Positions 21,137 to 34,629 of a DNA stretch of 35,061 nucleotides are shown one piece after another (the first letter of the stretch is position 1; every line of letters starts with the position of its first letter). Origin of the DNA: a virus; IMG/VR virus record IMGVR_UViG_3300025809_000056, positions 1 to 35,061 of that record; one strand, 5' to 3'. The position numbers and the translations under genes are program-made. The notes beneath the pieces were generated by a model, which saw only the letters and a list, made by a program, of their open reading frames with translations, was not told the origin of the DNA and ran no database searches.

Positions 21137-21583
21137 TTAGATTATCTTCATACCCATTGATTTAAGTGTATCTTCAGTCCAAATCTCGAACTTCCAGCCA
21201 CGATCCTTAGCATATTCATTGGCTGCCTTCCATTTACACGTATTGGTTACATATGTAGTAACTTCAGTTATGTACTTCTTGGTCTTACGACGCGTCTTAG
21301 GTGGTCGCGTCTGATTCTTAGGCTTAATCTCAACTAGATACACTTTGCCATTCATTTTGATCTGTAGATCAATAAAGTAACGATGCCGCTTGCCATCAAT
21401 CTCGCTGTAATATGGTACAACAACTTCCTCGCTGTTCCAAGCCTCGACTGAACTCTGAGAGTCACACCATTTGAATGCTACCTTCTCCCATGATGATCGA
21501 TATACTACATTCTTATAGTCTCCGATATACTTACTGGTATTCTTTACCTTATATCTACCACTATATGTCTTGCCCCATGCCAT
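21137..21583 (-). CDS. 4: Head completion nuclease gp4
   Basis: 148 residues (T4 gp4 has 150). The protein begins MAWGKTYSGRYKVKNTSKYI, with a conserved WEKVAFKWCD at 32-41. The nuclease core is of PD-(D/E)xK type: Y69-F-I-D72 and, one strand later, V84-E85-I-K87-P, giving Asp72, Glu85 and Lys87 as likely metal-binding/catalytic residues. In T4, gp4 (also called gp50/gp4) is needed to finish DNA-filled heads before tail joining. It is the first gene after the early/late boundary, with a late promoter 31 bases upstream and GGAG before the ATG. Confidence 0.9.
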   Translation of the reverse strand: MAWGKTYSGRYKVKNTSKYIGDYKNVVYRSSWEKVAFKWCDSQSSVEAWNSEEVVVPYYSEIDGKRHRYFIDLQIKMNGKVYLVEIKPKNQTRPPKTRRKTKKYITEVTTYVTNTCKWKAANEYAKDRGWKFEIWTEDTLKSMGMKII

Positions 21584-25839: not shown

Positions 25840-25997
25840 TATTTGTCATCCTCATCGAATTCATTGATTTTTGAATTAATTAAAAATAAGCCAGATAGAG
25901 CTACGAGGAGTCCAGCTAACATAGTAATATTTGACTCATTCTCTATTAGAGGAAACGAGCTGATTAACATTGCAGTACCAAGAATTACTCTAATCAT
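25839..25997 (-). CDS. Small membrane protein (52 residues)
   Basis: ATG at 25997 to TAA at 25839 encodes 52 residues with two hydrophobic stretches: MIRVILGTAMLISSFPLI (1-18) and ITMLAGLLVALSGLFLI (24-40), then a charged tail (KINEFDEDDK). The start overlaps the preceding gene by eight bases and the stop overlaps the next start by one. Probably a small inner-membrane protein; the acidic tail faces the cytoplasm if it forms a hairpin. Function unknown. Confidence 0.78.
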   Translation of the reverse strand: MIRVILGTAMLISSFPLIENESNITMLAGLLVALSGLFLINSKINEFDEDDK

Positions 25998-26205
25998 TAT
26001 TCACCTCAATAGTAACTTTATAAGTCGTACCATTACGATCCATTACTTGAATAGTTCTTTTTGACGAGAGATACTGACCTTCGCTATTTAGATCTAAACG
26101 AGGGTTAGTTGAATCTTCGATATGAGTAGACATCTTAGTTGAATCTTCAATAAGAGTCTTTGATATGACTGCTGCTATGTAATCACAATATTCTAAATTT
26201 ACCAT
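25990..26205 (-). CDS. Small protein of unknown function, first gene of a five-gene operon
   Basis: 71 residues from the ATG at 26205. This start is chosen over 26223 because a TTAGAGAA ribosome-binding sequence lies eight to nine bases upstream, in the same leader pattern used by other early genes here. The sequence begins MVNLEYCDYIAAVISKTLIE and ends QVMDRNGTTYKVTIEVNND, a small beta hairpin. There is an internal duplication of the kind (I)EDSTK...HIEDSTN, about eight residues apart. No family recognised. Confidence 0.72.
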   Translation of the reverse strand: MVNLEYCDYIAAVISKTLIEDSTKMSTHIEDSTNPRLDLNSEGQYLSSKRTIQVMDRNGTTYKVTIEVNND

Positions 26206-26240
26206 AATATGTTCTCTAATCAATTTATTAATTTATAAGT

Positions 26241-26276
26241 GTATTATACACTACTGGTCGAGAAAGTAAACGTTTA
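26241..26276. repeat. Promoter repeat, copy 1 (other copy 30427-30462)
   Basis: 36 bases, matching 30427-30462 at all but two adjacent positions (AA versus TT next to the -35 box). The repeat covers both promoter boxes and the whole spacer, including CTCGACCAGTAGTG, which is not needed for a promoter as such. Shared spacer sequence suggests duplication or a bound regulator. Confidence 0.8.
26243..26271 (-). promoter_or_regulatory. Early promoter for the five-gene small-protein operon
   Basis: Minus-strand GTTTAC (26271-26266) and TATAAT (26248-26243), 17 bases apart. The whole segment 26241-26276 is 34/36 identical to the promoter at 30427-30462. The leader contains ATTGATTAGAGA before the start codon. 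Confidence 0.85.
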
Positions 26277-26318: not shown

Positions 26319-26840
26319 TTAGAAGTTGAAGCCTACGCCTACTCCAGCATTTTCTGCAGTATCAAAGGTAATCGTTACAGTTGCTGATTCATATCGTGCA
26401 CCTAGCGCCACCGCAGCCTCGCCGTTGTAGTAACCAACAGCTCCTCTGAATCCATTAGTACCTCGAATCGCATTGGATGCTGCTATTGAAGCGGCAGTAC
26501 CAGCATTGAAGAGTTTTTCTTGTTTGTTAACTAATGATTCGAAGTCTGATTCGACTTGAGCAATAGTAGAATCAAACATAGATTGCTGAGCATCGACTTG
26601 AGCCTGGAAGTCAGACGACAGTTGATCAATTCGAAGATCGAGTCGATCGATGTTTAGGAAGGTTATGTATTGAAGTTGGCTTCGAGTTTGACCTATCACA
26701 TTGAATAACATTAACACATTGTTACCATCATCAATATTAAGCTTGTCGTGCAAGTCTTGTAGGTCTTGGTCCCATGGATCAGCAGCCAATACTGACGAAG
26801 ATAGTGTTAGAATAGATAGTGCTAATATTGTCTTTTTCAT
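26319..26840 (-). CDS. Exported protein with YadA-like outer-membrane anchor
   Basis: 173 residues. A Sec signal peptide is clear (MKKTILALSILTLSSSVLA, cleavage near 19/20). Residues 25-110 are helical, with heptad-like hydrophobics (RLDLRIDQLSSDFQAQVDAQ then STIAQVESDFESLVNKQEKL) consistent with a coiled coil. Residues 111-173 have the layout of a trimeric-autotransporter (YadA) anchor: a linker helix AGTAASIAASNAI, then four beta strands, including FRGAVGYYNG, EAAVALGARY, ATVTITFD and a final GVGVGFNF ending in Phe, as outer-membrane barrels do. Known YadA anchors end in a similar G-x-GVGYxW/F. There is no head or passenger domain. It is a single-gene unit under its own early promoter. Possible roles are superinfection exclusion or changing the host surface; both are inference. 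Confidence 0.85.
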   Translation of the reverse strand: MKKTILALSILTLSSSVLAADPWDQDLQDLHDKLNIDDGNNVLMLFNVIGQTRSQLQYITFLNIDRLDLRIDQLSSDFQAQVDAQQSMFDSTIAQVESDFESLVNKQEKLFNAGTAASIAASNAIRGTNGFRGAVGYYNGEAAVALGARYESATVTITFDTAENAGVGVGFNF

Positions 26841-26870: not shown

Positions 26871-26899
26871 ATTATATACCATCTGACGAGAAAGTAAAC
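26871..26899 (-). promoter_or_regulatory. Early promoter for the YadA-like gene
   Basis: Minus-strand GTTTAC (26899-26894) and TATAAT (26876-26871), 17 bases apart, with TTTCTCG after the -35 box as in two other promoters here. The leader carries CAATTAGAGA before the ATG. Confidence 0.83.
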
Positions 26900-26937: not shown

Positions 26938-28236
26938 TTATAACTTTTCGTTCTTATCGAATCCTCTAAAGGTTTTGAACCGAGGGAATCGAAGAGAGTA
27001 ATGATCAGAGTTCTCACCAATAGTAATCGCATCAGCTCTTATCTCGACGACCTGACCCATTGCCTTACCCTTATCATCCCATATTGATCGTCTCATGCTA
27101 TCAGTTAAACCTGATCCAACACTAACGCTGATGAACTTACCATCATCTGAACCCTGACATTGTATCGCTCCAAGATTACCCTTGTATTTACCAGTGCCTT
27201 CTTCTAGATCAATAATATGTAATGATACCTCAATAAAGGGTTTAGCTTTCAACCAGTTGTACGACCGTTTACACTCATACAGTCCACCGATAGGTTTAAT
27301 CATTAGTCCTTCATAACCCTTTTCTAAGGCCACCCGATTCATTTCAGTGTACTCAGCTTGACCTTCTTCGGTATCTAAGTTGATAATACACCAATCAACT
27401 GGTACTAAACAGCTAGTTTTTGTGAAGTCATCTAATTGTTTCTTTCGCTGTACTTGGTCTAGTTTAGATTTTCCAGATTTAAACTCTTCTAATGTGATCA
27501 TATCAAATATTGCCAGATATGCATCGTCAGTCTGAACGTCTTTCTTTCGATTAAGCTGCTTCATTAGAGCCTGAAAGTCACCACTCATTACTTCACCATC
27601 AATAACAACTGCTTCATCAGAAGAACCAACATAGTCTTCTATTGCTCTGTTTATATGAGGGAAGTTACTAAGTACCTTACCATTACGAGAATGTAAAACA
27701 CATTTGCCATCTTGATGAATAGCAATTACGCGAACACCGTCATACTTATATTCTATGACGCATTCTCCAACCATCTTCTTCTCATGTTTAGCTCCATCGT
27801 TAGCAAGCATGCACGTAAAGGTAGGAACTCTAAACTTAATTTTAGATCTCTTAGCTACATTATTAACTGTCTTTTCACTAACACCACATCGAAGATCCTT
27901 TAATAGAATACGACGATACCAGTTGTTCCATTGATCAGATGTTGCTTGACATATAAGACTATCAATAGTATCAATTGCATTGTTTCCAGTTAAGGAGCGA
28001 TCGATTAACGAATGAGCAACCTCTAGGAAGACATTCCACGAAAGGCCACTGCCGTCACTATCTGAGGCTTTAACACTCTTATCACTTACCCCGAATGTAA
28101 CTAATGGATCTAAAGCTAAACACATTGCTTCCTGAAAGATCTCATCCTCGATATATTTAGCTAGTACCTCTTCTTTAAACAAACGGCTATTATTAGATTC
28201 TAACTCAACTACAACTGAAGCGTAATCCAAACTCAT
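26938..28236 (-). CDS. 30: ATP-dependent DNA ligase gp30
   Basis: 432 residues (T4 ligase has 487). It seals nicks during replication and repair. The nucleotidyltransferase motifs are in order: motif I EYKYDGVR with the adenylated lysine K164, motif Ia/III region HSRNGKVLSNFPHI and VVIDGEVMSGDFQ, motif IIIa LAIFDMIT, motif IV EGLMIKP and motif V NWLKAKPF. An N-terminal helical domain (1-140) precedes them, as in T4 ligase, and a C-terminal OB fold (about 345-432) follows. The ATG overlaps the stop of the preceding small gene by ATGA. The ligase is the last gene of the operon read from the promoter at 28719-28748. Confidence 0.95.
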   Translation of the reverse strand: MSLDYASVVVELESNNSRLFKEEVLAKYIEDEIFQEAMCLALDPLVTFGVSDKSVKASDSDGSGLSWNVFLEVAHSLIDRSLTGNNAIDTIDSLICQATSDQWNNWYRRILLKDLRCGVSEKTVNNVAKRSKIKFRVPTFTCMLANDGAKHEKKMVGECVIEYKYDGVRVIAIHQDGKCVLHSRNGKVLSNFPHINRAIEDYVGSSDEAVVIDGEVMSGDFQALMKQLNRKKDVQTDDAYLAIFDMITLEEFKSGKSKLDQVQRKKQLDDFTKTSCLVPVDWCIINLDTEEGQAEYTEMNRVALEKGYEGLMIKPIGGLYECKRSYNWLKAKPFIEVSLHIIDLEEGTGKYKGNLGAIQCQGSDDGKFISVSVGSGLTDSMRRSIWDDKGKAMGQVVEIRADAITIGENSDHYSLRFPRFKTFRGFDKNEKL

Positions 28237-29001: not shown

Positions 29002-29442
29002 TTAGTTACCAGAAGTTAGATCCATATTGAATGGATAACATTTCATAAATAATTCATCTTCTCTACCGTATGCTTCAATTTCCCAAGGTTGTTTACTATA
29101 TGGAACATTATCATATAGTTCACCATACCAGCGTATTCCTTGCTCGTCTAATTCACCCTTTAAGAATTGTTTAATGTGAACCATCTCATGGACGATAGTT
29201 CTCATCTGCATTAAGAAGCCAACCTTCTTACCTTTATGAGTCTTAGCTATCTCAAGTTCACCTTCTTCTTGATCAGCTATAGCCCATCCATATGATTCAT
29301 CACCTTCTTCACCGCATTCAGTGACAAACCGAATCTCGAGGTTTGCTTCATGATCGGCAATACCTAGTTCTTTACATAGTCGAGTCAATAATGTCTCAAC
29401 TACTTTGCGGTTCTTACATCTGCCTGTTATTTCATATATCAA
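29002..29442 (-). CDS. SprT-like / M48-like zinc metallopeptidase
   Basis: 146 residues. A zincin motif H85-E86-M-V-H89 occurs in RTIVHEMVHIKQFLKGEL. The likely third ligand is a Glu in PWEIEAYGREDEL (E121 or E123) about 32 residues on, as in SprT/Wss-type and DUF45-type peptidases. An N-terminal half (LLTRLCKELGIADHEANLEI) precedes the active site. Targets are unknown. SprT-family enzymes cut proteins bound to DNA, and other phage zincins act on host factors, so either is possible. It heads an operon under the early promoter at 29468-29497. Confidence 0.82.
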   Translation of the reverse strand: MIYEITGRCKNRKVVETLLTRLCKELGIADHEANLEIRFVTECGEEGDESYGWAIADQEEGELEIAKTHKGKKVGFLMQMRTIVHEMVHIKQFLKGELDEQGIRWYGELYDNVPYSKQPWEIEAYGREDELFMKCYPFNMDLTSGN

Positions 29443-29467: not shown

Positions 29468-29497
29468 ATTATATCATACTATCCCGAGAAAGTAAAC
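29468..29497 (-). promoter_or_regulatory. Early promoter for the metallopeptidase operon
   Basis: Minus-strand GTTTAC (29497-29492) and TATAAT (29473-29468), 18 bases apart. The tract TAAATATTAACA just upstream of the -35 box resembles an UP element. TTTCTCG follows the -35 box as in the promoters at 26243 and 26871. Confidence 0.84.
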
Positions 29498-30540: not shown

Positions 30541-33500
30541 TTATGGAGTATCTGTTACTAAGTCAGCAGAGCTAAAGTTAACACCAACAAGGTCGGCAGA
30601 ACCGGCTATATCAGCTATAGTCGTTACACTAGTCTCTATCTCGTAGTAGTGAACAGGAGCCGAAGCTAATTGACTTAAGTCCTGCGTAGCACCACTATTA
30701 TAGATAGTCGCTAGGTTAGCACTCTCGTCTGTATCCCATATCGCAATTTGATTCACGCGACCATCAAACGATTGGGGTGATGAGGTACTATACTTACCTA
30801 TTTTAAACTGTTCTGCCTTTATATCTCCGTCATAACCATTACCTGTCTGTTGTACCTGAGATATAGCGTTAGCACCATTTACGCTCATAGTGAATCTAGT
30901 GATATAAGAGGCAATATCAGCAGAGTTAACTCCTGTAGTTCCACCGTCATAAGTAACTAATATGTGATTCCATTGGTTTAAAGGTAGTGTACCTACACCA
31001 AAGAAAGCAATCAAATTATTCGTTTGGCCGAATACGAAACTTATATTGCCACCGCCAAATTGATTGATTGCTATCTGACCATCAGTTGCTACATCAGTAC
31101 CGCCGTAGTAAAACAATGTCTCAGTATTTGTACTTGACGAAGGCTTCATCCACATTGATATAGTCCATGCATCAGAAGCACCAGAACCGTTAGCAGCTCT
31201 CCGAAGTACTGTTACATCAGAAGGATTACCCTGTAGTACTGTTCCTGAAGCAGCAGTAAAGTTAAGAGAGTTAGAGTTAGTATAAACAATTTCGGCAACT
31301 GTTACAGTAATAGTAAACTCAACAGTACCACCGATAGCATTACCAGCTTTGCAGTTAACTACAATAGTATCTGCAGATGTTCCAAGAAAGGCTGGAGCAG
31401 TACCACTTAATACACCAGTATTTTGATTTAATATCATCCAACTCGGAGCATCTAATTCAACATACTGATTAACTATATTATCGCTAGATACGATTTGAAA
31501 GTTTAATGCATCACCTTCTGTAACTGTTACAGTTTGATCAGCAATAGTTGGTACGAAATTAAGATCTGGTTGACTACCTTGACCTATAGTTTGTTTTGAA
31601 ATTACTGGAATAGAGTAATATGCTCTATTACCTTTAACGCCAAAGTATAAGCTAACACTAGAGCCAGGAGCCGGAGACTGTTTAGCGGTAGCTATTTTAT
31701 GACCTTTATCTTCGTCATATAAAGTCAAATCACCATTATCAGTAAATCTTAAACTAAACATACCTTGTATAGTTCCTGCACCACCACCATCTCTATATTG
31801 ATTTAAACTTGCAGAATAGAAATAACCACCAGATGGAGAAGTTGCATTCGTATTAGCATTCCAATCTGAAACTCCAGAAGAAGTATCAAACACGATAGCT
31901 TCATTGGTTTGGTATATGAATATATTATCTAATTGCTCTTCAGCAGTGCTAACTCCACTTGATGCACCAGTATAATTCGTACCAAAGAAATCTCCTTGAC
32001 CAACCTCATCAAGCATAAACATGATCTTTTCGCCTGCGACAATAGATATGTTTGATTTGATTATAGTATGATCTTCAATTCCATTTACGATTCCAGCTTC
32101 AGAGTTATCAAAATCATGAACGATGGTCCAATCTTTTGTCGATATGATTCCGTTAGGTAATACACCATTTGACCAAGTATGCATTTGGACATTGAAAGAT
32201 GTAACAGCTAAAGCTATAGTAGTCTTAGCTATTTCTACTTCAGGACTAACAGATATATCTACTAAAGTTAAGAACCCTAATTCATCAAATCTTAGCGCTA
32301 AAGCATCACCAGTACCTACTACATATTTAGTTCCATTGGTTGTATTAGTCAAAGTAGTATTTGAGCCAGCTATAAAACCACCAGCGTAGGTAAAAGCTGT
32401 ATTCCAATTAGATTGCGTTACCGACCCACCATTATAGGCAGTTGCTACTTCAGGTCCATCCCATATACCAAGTATTAGATTAGCACCTCCATTACTCTGA
32501 AAGTTCCACTTAAATTCATCTCCTTGAGTAAGTGCTTGACCAAAGTAAAATGGTAATTGCTGATTTACTGTAGAGTCATTAGTAGATACTGCTACTTCTG
32601 TATTAGCATTAGTTCCATATGAAATAAACCATTTGTCATTTGTAGCACTTAAAGAAGATCCACTAACCATATTAGAAGCGTCGATAGTAATCTCTGAAGC
32701 ATCTGACATAACTAATATCAAATCGGTTCCAACTACTGAACCACTAACTACGTTAGTGCTAGAACCTGTAGCTAAAGTCGTAGCATCAATAGTGATTATA
32801 GAACCGTTATTTAATGATAATTGAATATCGGTTCCAACTACTGTTCCACCGGTTATAATTGTATCGTTATCTATTGCCAAGCCACCAACGCCAACAGTGA
32901 TAACGCTTGCATCACTCATCGTTAATTCAAGGTCAATACCATTAGCATTCAATGTACCACTTACAACGTATAAGTTTGTATCTACTGCTAATGAAGTAAC
33001 ATCAATCGTAACCGTACTAGAATCACTAGCTGTTAATGTAAGAGTGTTACCAACTAAAGAACCGAAACTAATAGTAGTATTTTCGTCTACTGCTAAACTT
33101 GAAGCATCAACTGTGACGGTAGTAGCATCGTCCATAGTCAATACTAGATCAGAACCACTCAGTACTCCGCTTGCTACAAAGTTATTCGTATCAACACCTA
33201 GTGTAGTTACATCTGTTGTATAAGATGTACCATCATTCAATGTTATAGTTAAGTCGTTACCGCTTAAAACAAAATCAGTTACTGGATTGCCTTGTGATGC
33301 GAACGTTAACGCGTTGCTGAATAAATCGTTTAGTTGAGTTACTGCTAGGTTCAATACAGAGTTAACCAATGTTCCATTAATACTAACACCACTAACTGGA
33401 AGACTTTCAACCATGATCTTTTGACCATCTTTAGCCTTAATCTGTATGTTTGTACCATTAGCCACAGCCTGTAGGGTGTTAACGGGGTGAGGTATTAATA

Positions 33501-34629
33501 GTGAGTCAGCGCCCAAAGATAAGTCTCTAAGTAGGATTGTAGCTCCTGTAGGGTCTAAACCGAAGTCCATTGCTGCATATTTCAAGTAAGGACTGATTAG
33601 CTCAATATCCTTATCTTCAAAGAGTCTGTTATGTACTGTAGCCTGATAACGTAAGAGGCCAGTGTTAGGATCAACAGTATCACCTTGACGTACTTGGAAA
33701 ACACCTAAATCTGCATCATCAGATATACGTACCTTTACGATCTCAGCGAATAATGTAGTACCTGCTCTAACGTCAACAGGGTGATCAAAGAACCATTCAA
33801 TTACATCGTTTGGATATATATGGGCGGCAGCTGATGATCGAGCCGAAGCTCTAGGAAGAACTTGCATATACACCTGTCTACCGCTAATAGTAATACGATA
33901 TTCAAGTCTAATTGAAGAATCTACTTCTTCAGCTGCTGTTGTAGTAATACCAAGACCTGTGATGTTAATACCAAAGTAGTTATCACCACTGTATCCTGTT
34001 GATGTAAGAGGATCAGGACTTCCACCTAAAGGCAGAGAAAACATATCAGTATAAACCCTACCGCTAGGTGGAATAAATCCAGACCCGTCTCGGTTAGCAG
34101 TAATACTTTGATCTTTTAGTCCACCCCACATAGGAAAGAAGTTAATGTCGCTAGTCAAGTTGGTAAAGAATATATTCTCTGAACCTGAAGACATCTTATG
34201 TTGTTGGCCAAGGAAGAGCGAGTTTAGAGTTGTTTCAATTGCTCTATCAGTAATAAGCTTTCGTGATGCTGGGTCGTATCTAAGGTGGTCAAGGGCCAGT
34301 TCTTGTTCTGTTGTTACTTCATTAACAAGCTTGGCGCCTTCAGCATTGATGTAGTCTACAACCTGCTGAGTTGTGTATGATAAGTCATCAACTAAAAACG
34401 TACCATCCTTATCAGTTATACGACGCTCATTACATCGTGATAAAAGTATACGATCATCGCCATTCTCATCTTGTCTATCGGTTCGACGAACAATGATTCT
34501 ATTTAATTGGGTTGGATGCAATTCTGCCGTTACTGTTCCTAAGAACTTTGGCTTTATGCGGGAGTTATCGAAAAAGACACAACCTCTTGTTGTATCTGCA
34601 TAAAGTTTTATAAAATTTGCTACTGACAT
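30541..34629 (-). CDS. Modular tail fibre / adhesin with tandem repeats, Ig-like and LamG-like domains
   Basis: 1362 residues. The N-terminal ~420 residues form a distinct domain beginning MSVANFIKLYADTTRGCVFF, probably the virion attachment part. Six tandem repeats of about 35 residues follow (about 446-656) of the form VSGxLxGxDLxLTMxDxSxxTIDxxxLAVDxN. Next is a beta-rich section (about 660-1020) with two similar halves. A cadherin/He-PIG-type domain follows (TEGDALNFQIVSSDNIVNQY ... NQNTGVLSGTAPAF, about 1032-1105). At the C-terminus is a concanavalin-like LamG fold (AWTISMWMKPSSSTNTETLF ... LNQWNHILVTYDGG ... IKAEQFKIGKY ... FDGRVNQIAIWDTDES). The LamG end suits sugar or receptor binding. 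An AGGAA sequence precedes the ATG. Host range is probably set here. Confidence 0.9.
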   Translation of the reverse strand: MSVANFIKLYADTTRGCVFFDNSRIKPKFLGTVTAELHPTQLNRIIVRRTDRQDENGDDRILLSRCNERRITDKDGTFLVDDLSYTTQQVVDYINAEGAKLVNEVTTEQELALDHLRYDPASRKLITDRAIETTLNSLFLGQQHKMSSGSENIFFTNLTSDINFFPMWGGLKDQSITANRDGSGFIPPSGRVYTDMFSLPLGGSPDPLTSTGYSGDNYFGINITGLGITTTAAEEVDSSIRLEYRITISGRQVYMQVLPRASARSSAAAHIYPNDVIEWFFDHPVDVRAGTTLFAEIVKVRISDDADLGVFQVRQGDTVDPNTGLLRYQATVHNRLFEDKDIELISPYLKYAAMDFGLDPTGATILLRDLSLGADSLLIPHPVNTLQAVANGTNIQIKAKDGQKIMVESLPVSGVSINGTLVNSVLNLAVTQLNDLFSNALTFASQGNPVTDFVLSGNDLTITLNDGTSYTTDVTTLGVDTNNFVASGVLSGSDLVLTMDDATTVTVDASSLAVDENTTISFGSLVGNTLTLTASDSSTVTIDVTSLAVDTNLYVVSGTLNANGIDLELTMSDASVITVGVGGLAIDNDTIITGGTVVGTDIQLSLNNGSIITIDATTLATGSSTNVVSGSVVGTDLILVMSDASEITIDASNMVSGSSLSATNDKWFISYGTNANTEVAVSTNDSTVNQQLPFYFGQALTQGDEFKWNFQSNGGANLILGIWDGPEVATAYNGGSVTQSNWNTAFTYAGGFIAGSNTTLTNTTNGTKYVVGTGDALALRFDELGFLTLVDISVSPEVEIAKTTIALAVTSFNVQMHTWSNGVLPNGIISTKDWTIVHDFDNSEAGIVNGIEDHTIIKSNISIVAGEKIMFMLDEVGQGDFFGTNYTGASSGVSTAEEQLDNIFIYQTNEAIVFDTSSGVSDWNANTNATSPSGGYFYSASLNQYRDGGGAGTIQGMFSLRFTDNGDLTLYDEDKGHKIATAKQSPAPGSSVSLYFGVKGNRAYYSIPVISKQTIGQGSQPDLNFVPTIADQTVTVTEGDALNFQIVSSDNIVNQYVELDAPSWMILNQNTGVLSGTAPAFLGTSADTIVVNCKAGNAIGGTVEFTITVTVAEIVYTNSNSLNFTAASGTVLQGNPSDVTVLRRAANGSGASDAWTISMWMKPSSSTNTETLFYYGGTDVATDGQIAINQFGGGNISFVFGQTNNLIAFFGVGTLPLNQWNHILVTYDGGTTGVNSADIASYITRFTMSVNGANAISQVQQTGNGYDGDIKAEQFKIGKYSTSSPQSFDGRVNQIAIWDTDESANLATIYNSGATQDLSQLASAPVHYYEIETSVTTIADIAGSADLVGVNFSSADLVTDTP
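32660..33293 (-). repeat. Six tandem ~105-base repeats in the fibre gene
   Basis: Six units of about 35 codons. Each encodes two beta strands plus TID(A/V)xxLAVD(T/E)N or close variants: DFVLSGNDLTITLNDGTSYT, NFVASGVLSGSDLVLTMDDA, TTISFGSLVGNTLTLTASDS, LYVVSGTLNANGIDLELTMS, TIITGGTVVGTDIQLSLNNG and TNVVSGSVVGTDLILVMSDA start the successive units. Unit number may vary between relatives by recombination. Confidence 0.85.

Follow-up and report, generated by a model that had tools for sequence, protein, structure and literature searches.

The locus and its promoters

The window, by which we mean the whole 35,061-base viral record, is T4-like phage DNA: its gp32 shares 53% identity with that of a cyanomyophage, and genes for gp59, a gp25-type baseplate protein and a lysozyme can be identified in it. 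The main genes are all oriented leftwards. The gene analysed here has the coordinates and strand of the original prediction, and the following features frame it:

26319..26840, minus strand: putative minimal trimeric-autotransporter-like protein, 173 aa (ORF; Pfam and phage-anchor profile)
26938..28236, minus strand: ATP-dependent DNA ligase, the upstream neighbour (phrog_114, E=5e-87)
26871..26899, minus strand: early-type promoter of 26319-26840 (GTTTACTTTCTCGTCAGATGGTATATAAT), one of seven such sites
26243..26271, minus strand: second copy of the promoter, ahead of the next gene (25990-26223; motif search, seven-site family)
29468..29497, minus strand: third copy, with the extended promoter motif, ahead of 29002-29442 (motif search, seven-site family)

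The neighbourhood had been called a region of takeover genes, a loose wording for a stretch that holds DNA ligase, gp59, gp32 and small unknown genes; 2.7 kb upstream there is a lysozyme gene. Three other minus-strand genes of the window can be recorded here. The 146-aa product of 29002-29442, whose gene follows an exact copy of the early promoter motif, carries an HExxH-like motif (VHEMVHIKQF) and is probably a metallopeptidase of phrog_16532. At 30541-34629 lies the gene of a 1362-aa protein that resembles tail fibres and has a LamG domain as well as internal DLxLTxxDxSxxTIDxxxLA repeats. The 148-aa product of 21137-21583, in the structural block behind a late promoter, has a TnsA-like endonuclease domain (E=3e-17).

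The pattern GTTTAC[AT]...TATAAT occurs seven times in the window. All seven sites are intergenic, lie on the coding (minus) strand at positions from 22.7 to 30.5 kb, and are limited to the replication/early region. Three of them contain GTTTACTTTCTCG exactly; for the full form, the chance expectation is none. The promoter of our gene reads GTTTACTTTCTCG-N10-TATAAT at 26899-26871, with 0 expected in shuffles. The T4 late motif, TATAAATA, precedes structural genes at 21.6, 21.1, 16.9, 12.7 and 6.6 kb; none stands in front of 26319-26840, which lies outside the structural block, between the ligase and small unknown genes. One exact early-type site serves this gene and another serves the next gene downstream, so that an early transcript is well supported from the promoter sequences and is probably monocistronic. 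This agrees with the earlier proposal that the gene is transcribed alone from an early promoter. A crude promoter scan of phage relatives found no late TATAAATA and no consistent early promoter.

Anatomy of the protein and its candidate anchor

The 173-residue product very likely consists of a signal peptide, a coiled-coil stalk and a YadA-type anchor, and no head, as originally described. Its parts map as follows:

26784..26840, minus strand: predicted signal peptide, residues 1-19 (MKKTILALSILTLSSSVLA / ADPWD; rule-based scan)
26469..26726, minus strand: long helix, residues 39-124, comprising predicted coiled-coil stalk and linker helix (AlphaFold2 with and without alignment)
26322..26462, minus strand: YadA-like anchor, residues 127-173, with four predicted strands and a C-terminal Phe (Pfam, model, structural matches)

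A rule that looks for a basic n-region, a hydrophobic core and an A-X-A-like site predicts a Sec signal peptide cleaved after A19 (MKKTILALSILTLSSSVLA/A), the only clear one among the 35 predicted genes of the window. The mature N-terminus, DPWDQDLQDL, resembles DQWGPAIQDL of Erwinia phage S6, a likeness that we took as chance. The stalk, a putative coiled coil, is a single helix that spans residues 39-124 in the alignment-based AlphaFold2 model and 36-127 in the model made without alignment. No head family appeared in the Pfam scan, and nothing but helix precedes the anchor in the model.

The alignment-based model, a monomer, was built on twelve sequences that included distant relatives. Beyond the helix it places a four-stranded meander (residues 130-138, 141-150, 153-160 and 165-171), each strand short, with pLDDT mostly 77-89 over residues 71 to 170. 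The single-sequence run returned the same long helix at high confidence and no strands, so the four C-terminal strands of the original description are seen in the former model and not in the latter, and the barrel part depends on the supplied homology. When the model was compared with about a thousand solved chains, the five best PDB matches were all TAA anchors (Z 9.2-10.8): Hia 2gr7 (Z 10.8, rmsd 1.9 over 88 residues), followed by Hia 2gr8, AtaA 9vnj, Hia 3emo and YadA 2lme (Z 9.2). The next unrelated chain scored Z 6.5, and matches below rank 5, being common helix or sheet matches, were ignored. In a library of viral models, the named top matches were phage YadA-anchor proteins.

The only notable Pfam match of the protein is PF03895 YadA_anchor, on residues 127-173 (E=6.2e-4) and ending at the last residue. 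This match to the predicted anchor family reaches 20.2 bits, 2.5 bits short of the curated cut-off of 22.7; the nucleotide-side search gave 6e-6 and 22.1 bits. We gathered anchors from annotated phages (S6, phiEco32, Phynn, fHe-Yen8-01, GAP32, AAM22, XbC2 and TR2) and from viral contigs. The mixed alignment A1 proved too heterogeneous to be searched as a pattern, so the degenerate motif pattern Y[ND]GE.A.A.G was used, and many of its matches, such as S49-like peptidases, were dropped as not being autotransporters. A profile of 16 phage and prophage anchors, from which the window protein was excluded, scored that protein at 23.3 bits (E=2.9e-7), against 16.7 at best in 5000 shuffles of the C-terminus. 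Ten of these 16 anchors had been retrieved through a pattern based on the motif of the window protein itself; as the profile was therefore not blind to it, we repeated the search with 10 anchors from annotated isolates only, which gave 14.8 bits (E=1.4e-4 among the ORFs of the window), against 14.7 at best in 10,000 shuffles. Among the phage YadA-anchor families phrog_17426, phrog_26246 and phrog_8062, the best profile match was a weak one to phrog_8062 (E=0.022), and a single-sequence phmmer search of the PDB ranked Hia second without significance (E=0.73). From the conserved motif to the C-terminus the protein has 26 residues, versus 33 in most relatives. Its last residue is Phe, a C-terminal aromatic of the kind involved in BAM recognition; together with the signal peptide and the extreme C-terminal position of the match, this is an independent feature that agrees with a YadA anchor. 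By sequence alone the anchor signal is real but weak, and the YadA-like C-terminus originally proposed is supported by the Pfam, profile and model results taken together.

Phage relatives and accessory status

The original prediction implied that a phage-placed YadA-type barrel would be new. Phage-encoded YadA-type anchors are already known and have been discussed in papers: tblastn with Erwinia phage S6 gp46 found 89 phage records and with Privateer gp126 found 90. The window protein is a very divergent marine member of this group. The same architecture occurs in many lytic phages (Erwinia S6 gp46, phiEco32, GAP32, TR2, Phynn, AAM22, Privateer gp126 and PEi26 ORF152), often away from tail genes. 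Nine of 11 annotated examples, taken as annotated, satisfy the signal-peptide rule used above; the two exceptions are phiEco32 and XbC2, apparently through their annotated start codons. In Salmonella phages, YadA homologues were reported to be placed away from tail genes (PMC3728262), and the YadA-type genes of TR2 and FSL SP-058/076 adjoin dUTPase. PF03895 is present in 19 N4-like genomes (PMC10654107). In T4-family Serratia phages, viable 6.5-kb deletions take out the YadA-anchor gene ORF145 (PMC5449768), which indicates that this counterpart is dispensable there. In our literature search, no published functional test of a phage YadA-anchor protein was found, nor any experiment that places a phage member in the outer membrane or shows exclusion.

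Two further members came to light during the searches. A 142-aa phage protein, an even smaller member of the class (L015:841-1266, minus strand; L034:6284-6709, plus strand; also L018 and L033), has a signal peptide, an HHHH cluster, a collagen-like Gly-X-Y repeat and a YadA-like anchor; in L034 its gene adjoins siphophage tail genes. Vibrio phage K354 (L012:3446-5086) encodes a 546-aa protein with a signal peptide and a YadA-anchor-like C-terminus missed by Pfam, with a helicase gene nearby.

Three further contigs from this phage, including one of 70.9 kb, encode identical copies of the window protein, and the frame is intact in at least four assembled contigs. A tblastn search of the phage collection with the window protein gave no match. 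Neither the full-length protein nor its anchor found relatives in genome contigs, and in viral contigs both returned only the identical copies; among the viral contigs searched, one phage population carries this version. Fourteen related-ligase loci were fetched, four of the same phage (L096-L098 and L109) and ten others. In all eight of the other loci whose contigs extend past the ligase (40-56% ligase identity), unrelated genes fill the slot after it. The gene at 26319-26840 is an accessory insertion rather than a conserved component of the replication cluster. In genome contigs (L122-L182), matches to the window's anchor motif were mostly from Psychrobacter, the best single ones weak, and give a weak hint at a donor or host.

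Candidate roles and comparison with known systems

The explanation that we favour, tentatively and at nearly an even chance, is that the phage makes this minimal trimeric-autotransporter-like protein early in infection and uses it to alter the surface of the infected cell. The signal peptide suggests that the protein would be exported by Sec, and homology suggests that host BAM machinery would insert its C-terminus as a trimeric, 12-stranded barrel with four strands per chain. The headless coiled-coil stalk, of ~100 residues, may pass through or stay in the pore and be displayed on the cell surface. The gene would be accessory and probably non-essential, and its most likely benefit would lie in a changed surface at which other phages adsorb or inject less well. 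That this amounts to superinfection exclusion or receptor masking is possible, at somewhat under an even chance.

In order of likelihood, we place such hindrance of further infection at the outer membrane ahead of a surface adhesin, a virion part, a permeability factor and inert cargo. It fits best with the early-type promoter, the signal peptide, the lack of a head, the non-essential counterparts and the scattered distribution. Against it count the sub-cut-off Pfam score, the loss of the strands in the single-sequence model, their shortness and the 26-residue C-terminal stretch, as well as the restriction of this version to one population and the filing of larger relatives under 'tail' in PHROGs; the main item is Yersinia phage fHe-Yen8-01 gp92, annotated as 'phage particle associated'. 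This annotation, the PHROGs category of phrog_17426 and phrog_26246, and the presence of other kinds of YadA-domain proteins in cyanophage virions (PMC9146016) would suit a virion or tail protein, the trimer being a small fibre or receptor-binding part that shares the anchor fold. We consider that quite improbable in view of the signal peptide, the early-type promoter, the missing TATAAATA, the location outside the structural block and the loss of a counterpart in viable T4-family deletions. Virion preparations are, moreover, commonly contaminated by outer-membrane fragments.

A surface adhesin, by which infected cells would stick together or to particles and so keep hosts near progeny or alter settling, is unlikely but less so. 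The bacterial relatives are adhesins, phage relatives are annotated 'agglutinating/autoagglutinating adhesin', and a 'sibling capture' idea exists for curli genes of marine myophages (PMC7029224); the protein, however, has no head domain and only the short stalk, and its relatives owe their names to anchor homology only. We give little credence to an outer-membrane destabiliser or pore that would aid nutrient uptake or lysis: a trimeric barrel of 12 strands might be leaky if unplugged by the stalk, and a lysozyme gene is near, but the long helix would be expected to plug the pore, as in Hia and YadA, and an early-type promoter is unexpected in a lysis factor. Equally improbable is that the gene is passive cargo, left from a degraded bacterial autotransporter and without function in the phage. 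Low similarity to every relative and the single known population would agree with decay, whereas the repeatedly intact frame, a promoter of the phage's own type and the preserved signal peptide and C-terminal Phe argue against it.

A broader proposal, which we regard as unlikely but worth stating, is that minimal headless YadA-anchor proteins form a general, early, superinfection-stopping trimeric plug in the outer membrane, used by lytic phages that infect Gram-negative bacteria, across T4-like, N4-like and jumbo phages and marine siphophages, with the window gene as the most divergent marine form. Most of the ~90 phage records are named 'adhesin' or 'tail protein' from homology alone; if those forms that are early and headless work in the outer membrane of the host, such labels mislead, and a common route of host-surface remodelling by lytic phages would have been overlooked.

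Among the closest known systems is Edwardsiella phage PEi26 ORF152 (138 aa), which also has a signal peptide, a short helix, a C-terminal YadA-like anchor and no head, in a T4-like phage whose gene lies in a non-structural region, between tRNA genes and the ndd.1/e genes. PEi20 ORF152, Yersinia phiR1-RT (122 aa) and vB_YenM_TG1 (90 aa), Serratia phage phiCBH8 ORF145 and Kosakonia 305 are similar as judged from matches or records. Compared with these small T4-like proteins, the window protein lacks the classical 'AM.NIP' anchor start, has one more stalk segment and finds no full-length tblastn match in the phage collection. Privateer gp126 and Cronobacter vB_CsaP_009 (194 aa), of the Grimontviridae, share the signal peptide, coiled-coil-like stalk and anchor, and Privateer gp126 adjoins a sigma-70 decoy in a comparable early-region setting; they differ in phage family, in stalk and in their strong similarity to classical anchors. 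The PF03895 adhesins of lytic phages (S6 gp46, phiEco32, GAP32 and TR2; phrog_17426, phrog_26246 and phrog_8062) likewise combine signal peptide, stalk and anchor, but are longer, in several cases with collagen-like stalks, and score 45-69 bits in Pfam versus 20 here. Bacterial YadA, Hia and AtaA have the anchor fold in common with our model, whereas the window protein is headless, very short in the stalk, phage-borne and under a phage early promoter. The phage-encoded receptor blockers T5 Llp and Cor, and lambda Lom, follow the same proposed logic, in that a phage puts a protein into the outer membrane of its host, but these are lipoproteins or an 8-stranded monomer barrel and not trimeric autotransporters.
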